This document shows, piece by piece, positions 251-50,418 of a stretch of 50,418 nucleotides of DNA. Source of the stretch: Planctomycetota bacterium (lineage in GTDB: Bacteria > Planctomycetota > Phycisphaerae > Sedimentisphaerales > Anaerobacaceae). Location of the stretch: assembly GCA_014384025.1 (NCBI GenBank), contig JACNGQ010000178.1:1-50418 (forward strand), read 5' to 3'. Position numbers and translations under genes: made by a program. Numbering within the stretch: the stretch's first letter is position 1; each line of letters begins with the position of its first letter. The notes under the pieces are model-generated. The model was not told the origin of the DNA. It made no database searches and saw only the letters and a list, made by a program, of their open reading frames with translations.

Positions 251-1096
251 ATGTTTGAGGGTAAATCATTAAAACCGACTTCCGGGCAGAATACTGGTTC
301 TCGTAAAAGAAGTGCGGGTACCGGAAAAATACCTGATAAGCTGCCTGACAAAACTCTTAGATGCCGCCATGAGCTTAAGTACCACATAAGCGAATCAACG
401 GCCGAGGGGATTATCCAGTTCATTAAACCTTATCTGCCTTTGGACCGGTATTGTAAATTACACCGAAGTCGTGATTATCCGATTGTGAGTCTTTATCTGG
501 ATTCAAGTAACCTACAACTCTGCAAAGAAAGTCTCGGGGGACTTCAAAACCGCTACAAACTACGAATCCGCAGTTACACCGACGAACCGGATTATCCCCG
601 CTTTTTTGAGATTAAGCGCCGGATAAATACTATCATTATGAAAAGCCGGGCCCGTGTCATGAGTAGTGATGTTCCGATTTTGCTCGGAGGTCTGCCACTG
701 CCACCACAGAATTATACAGCCGATACAGATTCAATCAATCAGTTCCAGTTATATATGCATAACATACGAGCAAAACCTGCAGTATTAATTCGTTACACCC
801 GGCAGGCATACGAAGGCGGCTCAGAAAACAAAGTAAGAGTAACATTCGACCGTGAGCTTGCTTACTGTGTTACCAAAGAACCTGAAGTTAGACTTGACGG
901 CAGCGGCTGGCAACGTAATCCCTTTACAAGAGGCGGTGTCGTTTTGGAAATAAAATTCACTGATTGTTATCCTTTTTGGCTCAGCCAAATGGTCAAGTGC
1001 TTTAATTTAAGGCAACGCTCAATATCAAAGTACGCTTCTTCAATTCAAGATTCTTGTTTGTTAAAGTTTTGTGCGCCCCAGTTAGCGAGTATGTAA
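251..1096 (+). CDS. VTC-domain protein (polyphosphate polymerase-like)
   Basis: 281 residues. After a basic N-terminal tail of about 35 residues comes a VTC-type triphosphate-tunnel fold: ELKY at 41-44, the RYKLRIR strand at 101-107, EIK at 120-122, TFDR at 198-201, LEIKF at 232-236 and SKY at 259-261. These match the basic and acidic tunnel residues of the yeast VTC4 polyphosphate polymerase core, so an active nucleotidyl or phosphoryl transferase is plausible. There is no signal peptide or membrane segment, so it should be cytoplasmic, probably docked on the DUF4956 membrane partner that starts 3 bases after its stop. The ATG is preceded by GAAGG five bases upstream. In bacteria VTC proteins often sit beside DUF4956 proteins. 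The polyphosphate product is inferred from the family, not shown. Confidence 0.85.
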   Translation: MFEGKSLKPTSGQNTGSRKRSAGTGKIPDKLPDKTLRCRHELKYHISESTAEGIIQFIKPYLPLDRYCKLHRSRDYPIVSLYLDSSNLQLCKESLGGLQNRYKLRIRSYTDEPDYPRFFEIKRRINTIIMKSRARVMSSDVPILLGGLPLPPQNYTADTDSINQFQLYMHNIRAKPAVLIRYTRQAYEGGSENKVRVTFDRELAYCVTKEPEVRLDGSGWQRNPFTRGGVVLEIKFTDCYPFWLSQMVKCFNLRQRSISKYASSIQDSCLLKFCAPQLASM

Positions 1097-1099
1097 ACT

Positions 1100-1798
1100 A
1101 TGGATAGGATGTGGCAAATACTGGAAGGTCCTTCTTCATCAGGTGGGATTTTTACACCCGAAGCAATCATTTTGTCCTTACTGCTTGCCTTTGCCCTCGG
1201 ACAGGTCCTGGCGTGGGTTTATTATTTTACTCACAGCGGTTTGTCCTATTCAAAATCCTTTGTCCAATCACTGATTCTAATCACGGTCGTAATAGCGATG
1301 GTTATGACAGTCATCGGTTCCAATATTATCACCGCAGTTGGGCTTATGGGTGCTTTAGCAATTGTACGTTTTAGAAACATCATCAAAGATACCAGGGACA
1401 TAGCCTTTATTTTTTGTTCACTTGTAGTTGGTATGGCGGCAGGCTCTCAGCGTTATGATGTCGCTATCATCGGAACTATAATTCTGAGTTTGATAGCAAT
1501 ATATCTGTATCTTACCGGGTTTGGTACACACCAGCCACACAATGGCTTTTTGCGGTTCAGTTTCAGGGGCCACATTGGACCTGATAATCCAATTTCCGCT
1601 ATTCTTAAACGTTTCTGCGGCAGTTTTACTCTAATATCGGCACAAGCCAGCGGCTTTGGCACTGCTGAAGTAGAATACGCCTATCAGTTGATGATACGAA
1701 ATGCTGCAAAAAACCAACAGATGCTGTCCGAACTGCAACAGGTCGAAGGCCTCGAAAACATCAATCTGACAATGCAGGAGCAACTGCTGGAGGTCTAA
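1100..1798 (+). CDS. DUF4956 family membrane protein
   Basis: 232 residues. Four hydrophobic segments lie between about residues 18 and 142, followed by a soluble C-terminal region of about 90 residues. The stretch GALAIVRFRNIIKDTRD after the third segment is typical of DUF4956 proteins, whose biochemical function is unknown. Its position directly after the VTC gene and directly before a HlyD adaptor suggests that it is the inner-membrane component of this cassette, possibly the channel for whatever the VTC protein makes. That role is an inference from gene order. There is only a weak purine-rich ribosome site, so translation may be coupled to the upstream gene. Confidence 0.8.
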   Translation: MDRMWQILEGPSSSGGIFTPEAIILSLLLAFALGQVLAWVYYFTHSGLSYSKSFVQSLILITVVIAMVMTVIGSNIITAVGLMGALAIVRFRNIIKDTRDIAFIFCSLVVGMAAGSQRYDVAIIGTIILSLIAIYLYLTGFGTHQPHNGFLRFSFRGHIGPDNPISAILKRFCGSFTLISAQASGFGTAEVEYAYQLMIRNAAKNQQMLSELQQVEGLENINLTMQEQLLEV

Positions 1799-1805
1799 GC
1801 CGCGT

Positions 1806-2981
1806 ATGAAAATAATAAGCCCAATAAGTTTTCTCTCTCGTTTACGCCGGCACATTCTGCCTATCCTGGTTTGGCTAAGTGTCGTCGCATGCGTGGTTGG
1901 GCTTTTCACTCGCCGCTCACAACATTTTGAAGTTTTGGGCATTGCGCAGGGACAGGTTCGCCAGATTGCAGCCAACTGCACAGGACGTCTGACAAGCATG
2001 CCGGTCCAATTGTTTGACCAAGTCAGCCTGGGACAACCGGTGGCTGTTGTTGACACTATCCTCGACAACGAACAGCCACAAGACCAGTTGCAGGCACAAT
2101 TATCCACTATCTTAGCAGAAATAGAACACTTGACGTCACAATTAGTGCCAACACAGGACGACCTGCTCGCTGAAAAAGCGGACCGTGAAACCAGCCGTCT
2201 CAGCGACAGTAGAAGATTTTCAGTTGACGTTGAAAGCGCCCGACTTGAGATACTAAGGTACAGAGCACTAATCGAAACTGATCGAATAATGCTGGAAGAC
2301 CTGGCTTTGGAAGTACAAACCATCAAGGAGCTCCTGGCACAGGAGGCCGTAGCACCTTATGAACTTCAGAAAGCACAAATTCAATACGAAACACTGGCAA
2401 AAAAGATTGAAGAAAACGAGCAACTCCTGGAGCAGGCTAAAATCGCTCTTAAACAAACCCAGCATCGGTATGATGAATATATCCGATATCAACCTCACCA
2501 TCCCTCGGTGGACAATGCTCTTGACGTTATCCGCAAAGCAATAAAAATTCAGGAGCGGCGGATGGACGAATTATTAGTACAAATTGAGGCATTAGAGCCA
2601 CGGAAAACATTGAAGCTAACGGCTCCAATTGACGGTGTTATAAGCCAAATTCTGCATTGGCCTGGAGAAGCTGTATCAGCAAGCCAGCCGATACTCACAA
2701 TAACTGAGGTTAAGCCCACTGAAATCCTCGCTTATGCCGTAGAGAGCCAGGTGAATCAAATTCAGAAAGGAATGGCCGTAGAACTCGCAAAAAGAGGCGG
2801 TTCAGAAAAGATTGAGATTGCACGTTCCCAGATAACATACATTGGACCGATCGTTGAACAATTACCGGCAAGGCTGTGGCGAAATCAAAATATCCCTGAG
2901 TGGGGGAGACCATTCTTGATTAAAGCTCCACCTCAAATGAAGCTTATAACAGGTGAGGTCGTCGGGATACGCAAGCTTTAG
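1806..2981 (+). CDS. HlyD-family periplasmic adaptor (membrane fusion protein)
   Basis: 391 residues. One N-terminal membrane anchor (about 17-38), then a first lipoyl half with the pattern VSLGQPVAVVD, a long alpha-helical hairpin with coiled-coil character (about 95-270), a second lipoyl half beginning LTAPIDGVISQI and ending in a GEAVSASQPILTI strand, and a beta-barrel tail. This is the standard layout of membrane fusion proteins that bridge an inner-membrane pump to a TolC-type channel. It starts 7 bases after the DUF4956 stop, with GGAGG inside the end of that gene. No ABC, RND or MFS pump is encoded nearby, so the partner may be DUF4956 itself or a pump elsewhere in the genome. Confidence 0.87.
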   Translation: MKIISPISFLSRLRRHILPILVWLSVVACVVGLFTRRSQHFEVLGIAQGQVRQIAANCTGRLTSMPVQLFDQVSLGQPVAVVDTILDNEQPQDQLQAQLSTILAEIEHLTSQLVPTQDDLLAEKADRETSRLSDSRRFSVDVESARLEILRYRALIETDRIMLEDLALEVQTIKELLAQEAVAPYELQKAQIQYETLAKKIEENEQLLEQAKIALKQTQHRYDEYIRYQPHHPSVDNALDVIRKAIKIQERRMDELLVQIEALEPRKTLKLTAPIDGVISQILHWPGEAVSASQPILTITEVKPTEILAYAVESQVNQIQKGMAVELAKRGGSEKIEIARSQITYIGPIVEQLPARLWRNQNIPEWGRPFLIKAPPQMKLITGEVVGIRKL

Positions 2982-3063
2982 ATAAGACTCAAGGCTTTGC
3001 AGGTAAATCTAAAGAGTGAGAAGGAACTTGAAAGCTTGATTATAGAGAATAGAAATTATATAT

Positions 3064-4668
3064 ATGATTTGCACTTATTTTACCAAACAATCGGCTTATA
3101 TGATTATATGCGGTCTTGTCTGTTTGTTTAATTTGGCAGGGTGCACTCAGCATAACTATAAAAAAGAAGCTGACGAAAAAGTCTATAACATCATAGATCA
3201 AAAATGGCGGGTAGATTACGGCACAAAAGCCAACTATAAAATCAGCGATACCACACCGTTACCCAGTGACATACAAATTGAAAAAGCCGTTCCTTCTTCA
3301 GGCATCCTGAGCCTCTCACAGGCCGTAGCTCTCGCAACCGCTCACAATCGTGAATATCAAACCAACAAAGAAGAGTTGTATATCAAGGCCCTTGACCTGA
3401 GCCTGACACGTTATGAATTTGAAAGACAGTTTTTCAGAGTGGTAGAAGGTGGATATGCCGCCGACCGTAATGACGAGGTATTGGGTATTGAAGCCAATTA
3501 TGGTTTCAATCAATTGTTAGCCAGCGGCGCCAGAATCAGCACAAAAGTTGCCACCGCCTGGGTAGAAGTGCTCAGCGGTAATTTGCGGAGCGGCCTGGCT
3601 TCGCTCTTAAGCGTTACAGTTATACAACCTTTGCTCCGCGGGGGCGACCGAAGAATTGTCCTGGAAAACCTCACTCAGGCCGAACGTGACACACTTTACG
3701 AAGTGCGCTCGTTCAATCGATATCGTAAAAAATTCGTAGTCTCGGTTATCAGTCAGTATTACGATGTGATGCAGAGGCTTGATGCGGTAAAGAATGCCCG
3801 GACAAATTACAATACTCTAAGCCAGGTCTTTGGACGGATAGAAAAATTAGCCAACGCCGGACGTTTACCTCAGTTCGAGCTGGACCAGGCCGGACAGGAA
3901 AAATTGAAAGCATTCGATATCTGCATCCAGGCAGAAAAAGAATACAAGCAGGCCCTTGATGAATTTAAGATTACTCTGAGTTTACCCACTACAGCGGAAT
4001 TCCAATTAGATGAAAATGAGCTTGAAGCTTTAAGGGCTGCAGAAATGGCCAAGCCTGATTTTTCAGAGGCTGAGGTAATTGAAGCGGCATTGCTCCGACG
4101 CCTCGATATGGCCAACAATTCTGATGCAGTCATCGACGCCCAGCGTAAAGTTTTTGTTACCGCCGATGCACTCCGCGCCGAGTTGAACATAATTGGCAGT
4201 GCCGATGCTGTTTCATCAAGACGAGCCGACCGCAATAATATAGGGTCACTTAGAGAAGAGTATGGTCTTGGCTTTGAACTTGATTTACCGCTGGACCGTG
4301 TGCCTGAGCAGCACGTATATCGCAAGGCTCTGATAACTTTGAACCAGCGGCAGCGAGAATACGACCTGGCCGCCGACATAGTGCGTCTTGAGGTGCGCCA
4401 GGCCTACCGCGATCTTGATGAAGCCGCCGAACGCCACAAAGTACAACTGGAAGCTCTTCAATTGGCAGAGAAGCGCTTTAACAAGACATACCTGCTGCTT
4501 CAGTACGGCCGGGCAAGCAGCCGTCGTGTGCTCAGCGCCCAGAACGACCTGTTTGACGCACAGAATGAAGCTACGCAGACTTTGGTGGATTATACTATCG
4601 CAACCTTGAACTTTTATCGCGATACCGGAGTGCTCCATGTCCGTCCGGATGGAATGTGGGAGCGTTAA
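3064..4668 (+). CDS. TolC-family outer-membrane lipoprotein
   Basis: 534 residues. The N-terminus has a hydrophobic signal ending in the lipobox LAGC, with the acylated cysteine at about residue 27. The mature part is mostly long amphipathic helices and contains two related halves typical of outer-membrane efflux proteins, including the LSLSQAVALATAHNREY opening near residue 80 and a late LEVRQAYRDLDEA helix. It should form the trimeric channel that works with the HlyD adaptor 82 bases upstream. The start has no clear Shine-Dalgarno; an internal ATG at 3100 would still leave a short lipoprotein signal, so the exact start is uncertain. Confidence 0.85.
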   Translation: MICTYFTKQSAYMIICGLVCLFNLAGCTQHNYKKEADEKVYNIIDQKWRVDYGTKANYKISDTTPLPSDIQIEKAVPSSGILSLSQAVALATAHNREYQTNKEELYIKALDLSLTRYEFERQFFRVVEGGYAADRNDEVLGIEANYGFNQLLASGARISTKVATAWVEVLSGNLRSGLASLLSVTVIQPLLRGGDRRIVLENLTQAERDTLYEVRSFNRYRKKFVVSVISQYYDVMQRLDAVKNARTNYNTLSQVFGRIEKLANAGRLPQFELDQAGQEKLKAFDICIQAEKEYKQALDEFKITLSLPTTAEFQLDENELEALRAAEMAKPDFSEAEVIEAALLRRLDMANNSDAVIDAQRKVFVTADALRAELNIIGSADAVSSRRADRNNIGSLREEYGLGFELDLPLDRVPEQHVYRKALITLNQRQREYDLAADIVRLEVRQAYRDLDEAAERHKVQLEALQLAEKRFNKTYLLLQYGRASSRRVLSAQNDLFDAQNEATQTLVDYTIATLNFYRDTGVLHVRPDGMWER

Positions 4669-7410: not shown

Positions 7411-7947
7411 ATGTGCACTGAAATCGAAACAAAGCTAAAGGTCGATTCGCTGTCTGAAGTAGAACATAAGCTTGGCGAGCTTGGTGCAAAGTTTATGGCA
7501 GAGCAGTTACAGACTGATTACTTTTTTGACGATGTAAATGCAACACTGACTAAAGCCGACAGATGTCTTCGTTTACGGAAGCAGATAGTCGAAGAGAGCG
7601 AGAGTTGTTTTCTGACTTATAAAGGCGCCAAAGAAAAAAGCAATCTTAAAAGAAGACAGGAGATAGAATCTGAAATAAATGATGCCGATTCAGTTTATAA
7701 ACTGCTTTTGGCATTAGGATACGAACAAGTTTTGATAGTTGAGAAAAAACGCTGTCTTTGGCAGCTTGGCAATTGTGAAGTTGCTTTAGACCGGTTGCCG
7801 CTGTTAGGTGATTTTGTGGAAATAGAAGGGCCCAACGAAGAAGAAATAACCAATGTGCAAAATAATTTGGGACTGAATGGCCTGCCACATATCTCAAAAA
7901 GTTATGCGTCCTTATTGAAGGAGCGGCTACAGCAGCCTATTAAATAA
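7411..7947 (+). CDS. cyaB: CYTH-domain protein (class IV adenylate cyclase / triphosphatase type)
   Basis: 178 residues. The N-terminal EIETK at 4-8 is the CYTH hallmark (ExExK). It is followed by a DYFFDD strand, RCLRLRK, FLTYKG and a C-terminal EVALDRLPLLGDFVEIEG, all tunnel-lining motifs of the CyaB-like branch. Members make cAMP from ATP or hydrolyse inorganic or thiamine triphosphate, and sequence alone does not separate these activities; the cyaB symbol is therefore provisional. The ATG abuts the leuS stop with no space, which suggests translational coupling. It shares the triphosphate-tunnel fold with the VTC protein at 251-1096, although the two are not close relatives. Confidence 0.82.
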   Translation: MCTEIETKLKVDSLSEVEHKLGELGAKFMAEQLQTDYFFDDVNATLTKADRCLRLRKQIVEESESCFLTYKGAKEKSNLKRRQEIESEINDADSVYKLLLALGYEQVLIVEKKRCLWQLGNCEVALDRLPLLGDFVEIEGPNEEEITNVQNNLGLNGLPHISKSYASLLKERLQQPIK

Positions 7948-7986: not shown

Positions 7987-8931
7987 ATGAAACCGGAAGA
8001 TGGTTATATTGCTTATATCGTAAATCCCAAATCCGGCGCGACGAGCAGTAATTTACTCGGACGCCGTTTTGAACAATACCTTCATAAAAAAGGCTTTTAC
8101 GTCAAAGTTAGCCTGACTACTTCCCTTGAAAATGCCCGTGAATTATCTGCTAATTCGTCAATAGATTATGACTGTGCAATGGTTGTCGCTGTCGGTGGTG
8201 ATGGAACCGTTAGAGAGGTTGCTCAAGGCCTTGAAGGCAGCAACAAGCCGTTGCTGATAGTCCCGCAAGGAACTGAAAATCTTCTGGCAAATGAATTAGG
8301 TTTTGATGAAAGACTGAAAACAATAACAAGGGCTTTCGAAGCAGAATATGTTCGACATCTGGATATGGGAAGGGCAAATGGTAAATGTTTTACAACCATA
8401 GCCGGCTTTGGATTTGACGGACAAGTAGTCAATCGAGTAAGCGAGCAGCGAAAGGGACACATAGATCACTTCGATTATTTCTGGCCGATATGGCGAACAT
8501 TCTGGAACTACAAATTCAACCCTATGAAAGTAGAGATTGACGGTGAAGAGGTTTTCAACGGCCCCAGCCTGGTTTTTGTAGGAAACATTTCGAGATATGC
8601 CGTAGGTATTCAGATATTGCGTTTTGCCGATTACGGAGATGGTTTACTGGATGTGTGCATTTATAAATGCTCATCAAAGGTTCGTCTGGCCAAACATTCA
8701 ATGATGACTGTTTTGAAGCAACATGCCAAAGCCGGCGACGTTATTTATCGGCAGGGAAAGAGCATCATTGTAAGCTCCAATACTGATTCAGTCATGACTG
8801 AAATTGACGGCGACCCCGGGCCGACTTTGCCGGTGCATATCGAGGTAATATCTCAGGCAGTCAATTGCATTGTTCCCGAAAATGCAAAACCCGCAGGAAT
8901 AAGAACAAGAATAATTAGAGCCATAGGATAA
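7987..8931 (+). CDS. diacylglycerol/lipid kinase family protein
   Basis: 314 residues from the ATG at 7987; a TTG at 7960 would add nine residues but the conserved domain begins right after the ATG (YIVNPKSG). The nucleotide-binding GGDGT motif is near residues 68-72 and PQGTENLLANELG follows, as in the YegS/DgkB family. These enzymes phosphorylate diacylglycerol, sphingosine-like or related lipids with ATP at the inner face of the membrane. The C-terminal half has the expected beta-sandwich with MTEIDGDPG near the end. The natural lipid cannot be predicted. It lies 39 bases after the CYTH gene on the same strand. Confidence 0.88.
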   Translation: MKPEDGYIAYIVNPKSGATSSNLLGRRFEQYLHKKGFYVKVSLTTSLENARELSANSSIDYDCAMVVAVGGDGTVREVAQGLEGSNKPLLIVPQGTENLLANELGFDERLKTITRAFEAEYVRHLDMGRANGKCFTTIAGFGFDGQVVNRVSEQRKGHIDHFDYFWPIWRTFWNYKFNPMKVEIDGEEVFNGPSLVFVGNISRYAVGIQILRFADYGDGLLDVCIYKCSSKVRLAKHSMMTVLKQHAKAGDVIYRQGKSIIVSSNTDSVMTEIDGDPGPTLPVHIEVISQAVNCIVPENAKPAGIRTRIIRAIG

Positions 8932-8976
8932 AACAAAAGATGCACACTCGAGTTGTTGGCTAAAGGAAACAACAAA

Positions 8977-9792
8977 ATGGACTTTACAATCGGCAAGGTT
9001 AAAATTGGTTTGGACACTCCTTTATTCTTAATGGCAGGACCTTGTGTTATTGAAAGTGAAACCTGCTGTTTGGAAATCGCCAACAGACTTGTCGATATTA
9101 GCGCAAAGGCCGATGTAGGAATAATTTTTAAGGCAAGTTTTGACAAAGCCAATCGCTCCAGCCTGCACAGCTATCGCGGTCCCGGCATAGAAAAGGGACT
9201 GGACATTCTTGCAGCCGTGCGAGAGAAGACCAACCTGCCCATTATGACCGATGTTCACGAGCCCTCTCAAGCCGCTGCAGCAGGTAAGGTTGTGGATTGT
9301 CTCCAGATTCCAGCTTTTTTGTGCAGGCAGACTGATTTGCTTTGCGCCTGTGCGATAACAGGTAAACCGATAAATATAAAGAAAGGCCAATTCCTCTCGC
9401 CCGAAGAGATGAAAAATGCAGTTGAAAAGATTCGTACCTGCGGCAACGAACAAATATCACTCACAGAGCGAGGTACATTCTTCGGTTATAATCGGCTGGT
9501 CAATGATATGACAGCTATCGAACAAATGAAAAATCTCGGCTATCCGGTTATTTTTGATGCCACCCATAGCACACAGCACCCTGGTGGATTCGGCAATGCC
9601 AGTGCGGGCCGACGGGAAATGGCGCCGATACTTGCCAAAGCGGCAATCGCAGCAGGCGCGAACGGACTTTTTATCGAAGTCCATACAGAACCTGAAAAGT
9701 CAAAATCAGATGCCGCCTGTATCATGCCGATAGACTGGCTCGAAGATTTATTGAAAGTGTGCAAAAAAATATTTGAGGTCATCCGCGGATAA
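8977..9792 (+). CDS. kdsA: 3-deoxy-8-phosphooctulonate synthase (metal-dependent class)
   Basis: 271 residues from the ATG at 8977, which has AGGA nine bases upstream; an in-frame TTG at 8953 is less likely. The enzyme condenses phosphoenolpyruvate with arabinose 5-phosphate to give KDO 8-phosphate for lipopolysaccharide. AGPCVIESE near the N-terminus, FKASFDKANRSS, GTFFGYNRLVNDM and FDATHSTQHPG identify the family. Cys23, His197, Glu234 and Asp245 match the four metal ligands of the metal-dependent class; the metal-free enterobacterial class has Asn in place of the cysteine. It implies that this organism makes KDO and so an LPS-bearing outer membrane. No other kds gene is in the window. Confidence 0.95.
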   Translation: MDFTIGKVKIGLDTPLFLMAGPCVIESETCCLEIANRLVDISAKADVGIIFKASFDKANRSSLHSYRGPGIEKGLDILAAVREKTNLPIMTDVHEPSQAAAAGKVVDCLQIPAFLCRQTDLLCACAITGKPINIKKGQFLSPEEMKNAVEKIRTCGNEQISLTERGTFFGYNRLVNDMTAIEQMKNLGYPVIFDATHSTQHPGGFGNASAGRREMAPILAKAAIAAGANGLFIEVHTEPEKSKSDAACIMPIDWLEDLLKVCKKIFEVIRG

Positions 9793-34677: not shown

Positions 34678-36228
34678 ATGATGTCTGTAAAAATATTCAA
34701 TACCTTAGTTATCTTAATACTCATTGTCCTATCCGTTGCAATCTTAGCCAATAGTATGTCAAAACCGCTTAGCCGTGATGAACAGATGTACTGCACCGGC
34801 AGTGCCCTATTGGCGCAGGGCAAGATGATTTACAAAGATTTTTCATATGCTGCCCAACTGCCCTACCACCCGTTACTATTCGCAGCTTTGTTGCGAATAT
34901 TTAACACAACGCACTATTTACTCATCGGCAGAATGCTCTCTGCTTTTTTTGATATTCTCGTGGTAGTGTGTATCGTCGGAATATATCGGTGTATTTTCAA
35001 GTCCTTTGCAATTACCGGAATGCTCTTGGGGCTGGCAGCGGCGGTTCTGTATGTATTCAATCCTCTGGTCGATTATGCCAACGGTTATGCCTGGAATCAT
35101 GATGCTGTAATCTTCTGTGTTGTGTTGGCTTTCTGGTTGTTCGTGTCCACCGATTTTACGCAAAAATCAAAATATTGGCGAATTGCCGCTATCGGCGCAC
35201 TGCTTACATTTGCAACCTGTATGCGTATAACTACGGCTTTGGTGGAGCTGTTATTTTTCGCGATAATTCTGAGCCAGCCGGCAGAAACAATAAAACAAAG
35301 ATTCAAGACCGCCCTGCCATTCTTAATTGCCGTTGCTGTTGTTTCGGCTTGGCCTGTTTGGGTGATAGCTCAAGCTCCACGGGCATTCTTTCTGAACCTC
35401 GTCAAAATACCTATGCTCTATGGCGAATGGCTGCATCAAATAGGAATGGTTTTCAACAAATTCGAGCTGACATTGGCCTGCCTTACACAGCCGGGATATT
35501 TTGCACTTGTTGTATTAGCAATATACCTATCGTTGATGATTGTGTGCCTTCGCCGCAGATTAAAGATAACGAACGGCAGGAACTTATTACTGGCCGTTCT
35601 GCTGCCGTTAACATTCCTAATAATCGCCCTGATTCCCCCGACAATGTGGAGGCAGTACCTTGCTATGCCGGTGCCCTTCCTGGTAACAGGCTTTGCTTTG
35701 CCTCTGCTGTATTTGCGCAAACTTGCCGGTAAAAGCGGTGCTAACATGCACTTCAAAATAGCTGCTGATTTAGTAGGTCTGTGTGTATTTGTGGCAGTCA
35801 CTTTTTATCCGTTTGTACTGTACAGAATTCCGATAGTTCTGGCACCTGAAAGATGGGAGCCAGTAGAAATACATAAGATTTCAGAAGATATCGCCAAAAA
35901 ACTCAAAACTCAAAACTCAAAACTCATACTTACCTTAGCCCCCCTGCTTGCTCTTGAGGGCGGCTGTGATATCTATACGGAGCTTTCCTGTGGTGCGATT
36001 ATCTATAGAGTTGCCGATTCTATGTCAGCTTCGCAGCGCAGTATTACCCACACTGCAGGTCTAAAAACACTTGGAGAATTGCTGGAAAAAACTCCGCCTT
36101 CAGCGGTGATACTTAACGTTGAACGCGGCAAATTAGCATTGCTTGAAGCCCCCCTTCGAGCGGTCGTCAAGCCTGACTGGGAAAGAGAAACCTATAACAA
36201 TGGCTTTGTAGCTTATTTCAAGCCATGA
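34678..36228 (+). CDS. polytopic GT-C-like membrane glycosyltransferase
   Basis: 516 residues with about ten membrane segments. An early extracytoplasmic loop has SRDEQMYCTGSALLAQG, where the DE pair matches the catalytic acidic motif of GT-C enzymes (PMT, ArnT family) that transfer sugars from polyprenyl-phosphate carriers. KDFSYAAQLPYHPLL follows as expected. The soluble C-terminus (about 400-516) includes the KLKTQNSKL segment encoded by the AAAACTC repeat. The acceptor is unknown. It may belong to the operon with the CNNM pair 48 bases upstream. Confidence 0.8.
   Translation: MMSVKIFNTLVILILIVLSVAILANSMSKPLSRDEQMYCTGSALLAQGKMIYKDFSYAAQLPYHPLLFAALLRIFNTTHYLLIGRMLSAFFDILVVVCIVGIYRCIFKSFAITGMLLGLAAAVLYVFNPLVDYANGYAWNHDAVIFCVVLAFWLFVSTDFTQKSKYWRIAAIGALLTFATCMRITTALVELLFFAIILSQPAETIKQRFKTALPFLIAVAVVSAWPVWVIAQAPRAFFLNLVKIPMLYGEWLHQIGMVFNKFELTLACLTQPGYFALVVLAIYLSLMIVCLRRRLKITNGRNLLLAVLLPLTFLIIALIPPTMWRQYLAMPVPFLVTGFALPLLYLRKLAGKSGANMHFKIAADLVGLCVFVAVTFYPFVLYRIPIVLAPERWEPVEIHKISEDIAKKLKTQNSKLILTLAPLLALEGGCDIYTELSCGAIIYRVADSMSASQRSITHTAGLKTLGELLEKTPPSAVILNVERGKLALLEAPLRAVVKPDWERETYNNGFVAYFKP
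35898..35925. repeat. perfect 7-bp tandem repeat inside a coding sequence
   Basis: Four exact copies of AAAACTC in a row, at about codons 407-416 of the membrane glycosyltransferase gene. Seven is not a multiple of three, so each unit gained or lost would shift the frame of the last 100 or so codons. Confidence 0.95.
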
Positions 36229-49893: not shown

Positions 49894-50418
49894 TTACTCT
49901 CCTGGCGAAGGTGCAGAGGCGGTCCAGTTGCCAGGGACATTGCCGTAATCGGATGAGACCTTGCGTGTAAGCGATTTGTTGCCGTCGTTCGGACCTGTCG
50001 GCCAGTGGTCAACTCCATCGGGGGAATTCTCAGGATGAACACCATCGCTGTAAGTAACCCTGTCAACGCGAATGTAATAAAGCGTGCCGGACTCATCCAC
50101 GTCACCCGGCATCGAAAGCTCCAGTCTCTCGCCGGCATTGTTCAAACTGCCGCCGTATGGGCCGAGAATCTTCTCAACAGGGACAGCCGGATACCGCCAG
50201 GCAAAAGCCTCCGGGTCTTTGACCACCAACAAATATCCCCCGGCAGGTATCATTACGGGAACATCAGCAGGGAAGATAAAGTCAATACCGTCGGTGAACT
50301 TCCACGGCTGAGCAGTCTCAAAATTATATAAAGAGACAGGTTCATTGCTGATGTTGTGAAGCTCAATATATTCGTACTGGTCATTCGTATATGAGCCGCC
50401 AACCGGCCAGGATGGATT
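49894..50418 (-). CDS. lamin-tail-domain protein, N-terminal part outside the window
   Basis: Only the last 174 codons are in the window; the frame is open to the right edge. The visible part is a lamin tail domain: YEYIELHNISNEPVSLYNF, FIFPADVPVMIPAGGYLLVV and GSLNNAGERLELSMPGD, then NWTASAPSPGE at the end. In Planctomycetota such domains sit at the end of large secreted proteins, often with CotH or Fn3 modules, and probably bind surfaces or other proteins. The stop comes right after the domain, a common ending for these proteins. An internal ATG at 50253 is not a start. Confidence 0.8.
   Translation of the reverse strand, partial: NPSWPVGGSYTNDQYEYIELHNISNEPVSLYNFETAQPWKFTDGIDFIFPADVPVMIPAGGYLLVVKDPEAFAWRYPAVPVEKILGPYGGSLNNAGERLELSMPGDVDESGTLYYIRVDRVTYSDGVHPENSPDGVDHWPTGPNDGNKSLTRKVSSDYGNVPGNWTASAPSPGE

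Follow-up and report, generated by a model that had tools for sequence, protein, structure and literature searches.

Four open reading frames, all on the plus strand, lie in a row near the start of contig JACNGQ010000178.1 of a Planctomycetota bacterium (assembly GCA_014384025.1; GTDB lineage Planctomycetota; Phycisphaerae; Sedimentisphaerales; Anaerobacaceae), which was analysed from position 1 to position 50,418 of the forward strand (hereafter, the window). These genes encode a soluble VTC-domain protein of 281 amino acids that is a predicted polyphosphate polymerase (251-1096; Pfam PF09359, E 3.8e-37), a DUF4956 membrane protein of 232 amino acids (1100-1798; PF16316), a HlyD-type periplasmic adaptor of 391 amino acids with an N-terminal membrane anchor (1806-2981; HlyD_3, E 1.1e-11), and a TolC/OEP outer-membrane factor, a lipoprotein of 534 amino acids (3064-4668; OEP, E 3.3e-17). 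All four Pfam matches exceed the respective cut-offs (128.5 bits against 23 for VTC, 49.8 against 30.6 for DUF4956, 45.9 for HlyD_3 and 63.3 for OEP). The gaps between the genes are 3, 7 and 82 bases, and the layout and coordinates given in a preliminary description of this DNA are exact. The contig and the window begin at the same base, which leaves 250 bases visible upstream of the VTC gene.

The VTC protein shows numerous similarities to the catalytic subunit of the yeast VTC complex. A profile constructed from 58 relatives matches yeast Vtc4 at E 5.6e-26, ahead of Vtc2 and Vtc3, and the AF2 model (pLDDT 88.6), which adopts the TTM tunnel fold, matches the Vtc4 crystal structure 3g3r in a Foldseek search (E 1.1e-15). 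In the computed alignment, K43, R105, R107, K122, K131, R184, R196, E233 and K260 are invariant in all 58 relatives and correspond, in that order, to the positions that we take to be K200, R264, R266, K281, K294, R361, R373, E426 and K458 of Vtc4; two further tunnel positions are less strictly kept (Y182 in 57 of the 58 relatives and S259 in 51). The full set of tunnel residues that had been ascribed to this protein is thus present. The profile match, the fold match and the tunnel residues all point to a VTC of the polymerase type, and the putative activity of the protein as a polyphosphate polymerase is well supported by sequence. According to Pfam, the 281-residue protein contains the VTC domain only, with neither an SPX domain nor a Vtc1-type membrane domain. 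No match to PPK1 or PPK2 was detected in the host genome, which is 95% complete; order-wide, PPK1 is present in 26 of 148 genomes vs. 90 of 148 for DUF4956. No biochemical work on bacterial VTC proteins or on DUF4956 was found in the literature searched, in which three papers mention DUF4956.

The second metal site of TTM triphosphatases is formed by three glutamates, namely Glu-2, Glu-4 and Glu-171 in AtTTM3 (PMC4641920). Among the positions of this site that can be placed by motif, the VTC family has Arg39 (52/58), Glu41 (58/58) and Lys235 (58/58), that is, basic residues in place of two of the three glutamates. Arg39 and Lys235 would fit a Vtc4-like polymerase, whereas Glu41 is a difference from Vtc4, from which it is missing. 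The window also encodes a CYTH protein of the same TTM superfamily (7411-7947), located downstream of the LeuRS gene and before a diacylglycerol-kinase-like gene; as read from the sequence, this protein keeps the ExExK and ExE motifs and has glutamate at all three second-site positions.

The DUF4956 protein is predicted, from the AF2 model (pLDDT 88.9) and the alignment, to consist of five membrane helices (residues 20-139; 1157-1516) followed by an ACT-like C-terminal domain (approximately residues 146-227; 1535-1780). Foldseek searches yield weak matches to ACT domains, including the C-terminal domains of MgtC (2lqj and 7qa5). The arrangement of membrane helices and an ACT-like domain is shared with the MgtC/SapB family, in contrast to the MgtC (PF02308) score of DUF4956, which is below the cut-off (21.4 vs. 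31.4 bits). MgtC is not, to our knowledge, a channel, and we know of no linkage of MgtC/SapB proteins with VTC, HlyD or CotH. The only invariant residues among 53 diverse DUF4956 members are R90, F91 and R92 (RFR), which are located in the most basic inter-helix loop, between helices 3 and 4. Because there are five helices, the RFR loop and the C-terminal domain would share one face of the membrane, the sidedness being suggested by the positive-inside rule.

Proteins of the HlyD type are known from multi-part export systems. The HlyD protein of the window produces RND_mfp and EmrA matches in NCBIfam, all below the cut-offs, and the OEP protein carries a lipobox that reads as LAGC, with Cys27 at 3142-3144. 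According to Pfam, none of the four genes encodes an inner-membrane pump or a glycosyltransferase synthase of the Bcs/Xcs type, and ABC, MFS and RND families are absent from the 25 most common families (of 105 in total) among 101 neighbour proteins of 42 cassettes. In the nearest relative of the cassette (locus L033, with 94% identity in DUF4956), the genes upstream are metabolic and located on the opposite strand, namely a homoserine dehydrogenase identified with Pfam and two genes reading as phosphoglycerate mutase and aspartate kinase; no pump is encoded upstream in this locus. The preliminary description of an adaptor and a channel with DUF4956 in the place of a pump is borne out insofar as DUF4956 adjoins HlyD and no pump is found in the set or among the most common neighbours, and the objection that a pump gene might lie immediately upstream finds no support as far as can be seen from the 250 bases available here and the region upstream of the cassette in the relative. 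In loci L042, L044 and L049, secretin or secretin-related genes of one cluster (with a Pfam Secretin match in L049) adjoin type-A trios that have no OEP gene.

The linkage of these genes was traced in an order-level sample of 89 non-identical loci with the window's type of DUF4956, the counts being given for loci with enough flanking sequence. The VTC gene precedes DUF4956 in 82 of 83 loci. HlyD follows it in 76 of 77, in most cases at a distance of no more than about 20 bases. Of 68 loci, 51 have an OEP gene at a distance of up to 4 kb, and all four genes are found together in 49 of 64. The four-gene set is not a chance arrangement given that the gene order is kept in relatives. The trio of VTC, DUF4956 and HlyD reaches other families, with 13 cases in 60 loci sampled phylum-wide, and an OEP gene adjoins it in a single case (L185); the OEP is not adjacent to about a quarter of the cassettes within the order or to nearly all trios elsewhere. 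This trio is the stable unit at the phylum level. The expected conservation of the order accordingly holds for the linkage in relatives and, phylum-wide, for the trio, but the complete four-gene order was found only in three families of the window's order.

A tree built from 85 DUF4956 proteins places the HlyD-linked members in one clade, of whose 35 rows they make up 34 (SH-aLRT 97), with 2 label changes compared to 26.8 in shuffles. Under midpoint rooting, this clade is nested among CotH-linked DUF4956 proteins and, therefore, HlyD looks like a derived partner, so that export through HlyD and the OEP looks like a derived version of the pair of VTC and DUF4956 that is associated with CotH. 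The scan of genome contigs returned Planctomycetota. Five Gram-positive plasmid loci contain VTC-DUF4956 without HlyD, and the VTC search of plasmids produced Gram-positive matches only. A plasmid from Hymenobacter (Bacteroidota) carries consecutive genes for a HlyD-like protein, DUF4956 and TolC (L223, 5715-8955), the HlyD-like assignment being read from the sequence and lacking a Pfam match; no VTC gene was found nearby. The DUF4956 search of viral contigs yielded one locus, and the phage records are four unannotated faecal contigs. On Sinorhizobium meliloti pSymA (L229, 5290-7657), a DUF4956-like gene directly follows a gene for a caspase-type-peptidase-like protein, with no VTC, CotH or HlyD genes nearby.

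A partner absent from the preliminary description is the CotH kinase: more widely, the VTC-DUF4956 pair is a CotH module. The second VTC-DUF4956 pair of the host genome is located after a CotH gene. In Gram-positive pel operons, CotH-VTC-DUF4956 has been described as a group of uncharacterised accessory genes (PMC7112168); NELoc-2 of C. perfringens contains VTC and CotH genes (PMC2879425). The pairing of VTC with DUF4956, and CotH beside some type-A cassettes and in the second locus of the host, are shared with these modules; the difference lies in HlyD and OEP, which replace or join CotH, and in the distinct DUF4956 clade. The association of VTC-DUF4956 with CotH is thus already known; the set of VTC, DUF4956, HlyD and OEP was not found in the literature searched, mostly non-subscription papers. 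In locus L198 (2785-5900), a BcsA-like glycosyltransferase (GT2-PilZ) is encoded directly before VTC-DUF4956, an exopolysaccharide link as in the Gram-positive pel loci.

Among 392 Planctomycetota genomes, DUF4956 is present in 112, VTC in 103 and CotH in 126; DUF4956 is shared with VTC in 98 genomes and with CotH in 103, while both DUF4956 and CotH are missing from 257. The three genes are near all-or-none in these genomes (odds ratios of 385, 128 and 99), which are related rather than independent samples, such that p-values overstate independence. In 18 of 69 type-A loci, the gene immediately before VTC, in the same orientation, encodes CotH; in three of these loci, the two genes overlap slightly, by a few bases. 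Counted anywhere nearby, CotH shows a modest enrichment (19 of 40 cassettes vs. 3 of 20 arbitrary 20-kb control regions; p 0.02); the association is better supported by the same-strand direct neighbours and by the co-occurrence across genomes. A simple hydrophobicity test detects a signal-like N-terminal segment in 82 of 91 CotH proteins compared to 1 of 164 VTC proteins. In loci L165-L168, DUF4956 adjoins CotH in genomes without a VTC match. The order DUF4956-TPR-CotH-VTC is seen in L170 and L191, where the intervening genes for proteins of 370 amino acids (8652-9755 and 8199-9302, respectively) were suspected to encode HlyD, a candidate that was rejected because the match is to TPR.

We propose, with a probability of about 0.4, that the set forms an export line for a phosphate polymer in which transport is coupled to the synthase. 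The cytosolic VTC protein would lengthen polyphosphate from ATP inside its tunnel, and DUF4956 in the inner membrane would receive the chain in the place that the yeast complex gives to its Vtc1/3/4 membrane channel. HlyD and the TolC-type lipoprotein could then extend the path via the periplasm and the outer membrane without a pump, the chain being pushed by its own synthesis. We infer each of the polymerase activity, the passage through DUF4956, the passage through HlyD and the OEP, and the identity of the polymer. This reading is suggested by the Vtc4-like VTC, the conserved linkage, the lack of a pump family among the most common neighbours and the lack of a PPK1 or PPK2 match, whereas the invariant Glu41, the MgtC-like outline of DUF4956, the cassettes and trios without an OEP, and the genomes that hold DUF4956 and CotH without VTC count against it. 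The Gram-positive loci without HlyD and the HlyD-DUF4956-TolC row in Bacteroidota are as expected if HlyD and TolC serve the outer membrane.

Known systems provide partial parallels. The yeast VTC complex translocates its polymer through basic-lined helices in a step coupled to synthesis (PMC9911596), and the set resembles this complex in the TTM tunnel fold, the catalytic residues and a cytosolic polymerase with a membrane partner, but differs from it in having a five-helix DUF4956 instead of the SPX and Vtc1-type domains and in the addition of HlyD and OEP. Cyanobacterial cellulose export has been modelled as XcsA-XcsB(HlyD)-TolC, a model that is unproven (PMC12430437). There, too, an inner-membrane synthase feeds HlyD and TolC without a pump; however, the synthase is a glycosyltransferase, in contrast to VTC plus DUF4956 here.

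The MgtC-like outline makes a regulatory role of DUF4956 a real rival, although we consider it rather doubtful: DUF4956 would be an MgtC-like regulator and no conduit, VTC would make polyphosphate or regulate phosphate/ATP in the cytosol, and HlyD-OEP would export another cargo with a pump encoded elsewhere. The sub-threshold MgtC score, the five helices with an ACT-like domain and its weak Foldseek matches to MgtC, and the DUF4956-CotH pairs without VTC are all consistent with such a role, as is the Hymenobacter locus, where HlyD-DUF4956-TolC occurs without VTC and, accordingly, HlyD and TolC need not carry the VTC product. However, HlyD follows this DUF4956 clade almost invariably and at a distance that is tight for an unrelated exporter, and no pump family stands out among the neighbours. 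A destination short of the cell surface is quite unlikely in our estimate; in this case, VTC-DUF4956 would put polyphosphate only in the periplasm, as a store, chelator or chaperone, with HlyD-OEP adjacent for other cargo. The cassettes and trios that have no adjacent OEP would fit this scheme, and HlyD as the constant third gene argues against it. Least probable, to the point of being improbable altogether, is that VTC is another TTM enzyme, a triphosphatase or nucleotide cyclase, with no polymerase activity: Glu41 is kept throughout the family as would suit such an enzyme, but the remaining placeable glutamates are Arg39 and Lys235, Lys260, the equivalent of the catalytic Lys458, is invariant, and the best match is the catalytic Vtc4.

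The tie with CotH suggests a purpose for export, namely phosphate supply to extracytoplasmic kinases. Under this possibility, which we regard as unlikely, VTC-DUF4956 would deliver polyphosphate outside the cytoplasm, where ATP is scarce, for secreted CotH-family kinases to use as a phosphate donor or as a substrate, and HlyD-OEP would extend the delivery to surface-bound CotH. Apart from the near all-or-none occurrence of the three genes, the same-strand CotH neighbours and the hydrophobic N-termini of CotH, this idea is compatible with B. subtilis, where the mother cell produces CotH and no VTC or DUF4956 matches were found. Furthermore, the ATP source of CotH in the spore coat has been called unanswered (PMC7821199). 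Against this possibility, CotH uses ATP in vitro (PMC7821199), 19 of the 392 genomes, themselves not independent samples, have CotH but neither VTC nor DUF4956, VTC and DUF4956 occur in the absence of CotH in Bacteroides ihuae, the CotH motif that was sought is missing from most CotH proteins beside type-A cassettes, and no CotH gene is found beside the cassette of the window's nearest relative.

Bacterial polyphosphate is usually thought to be made by PPK and to be intracellular. If the export line is real, a genome without PPK matches makes and exports polyphosphate in one act, via a VTC-type synthase and an outer-membrane route, and DUF4956, a family without a role, acquires one. It is conceivable, albeit improbable, that exported polyphosphate is the extracytoplasmic phosphate donor for secreted CotH-family kinases, with HlyD-OEP involved in one Gram-negative lineage, so that phosphorylation outside the cell would run on polyphosphate, not ATP. 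The near-perfect phylum-wide tie of VTC, DUF4956 and CotH provides a testable handle on the phosphate source of extracytoplasmic kinases. Elsewhere in the window, at 35898-35926, AAAACTC is repeated four times in tandem.
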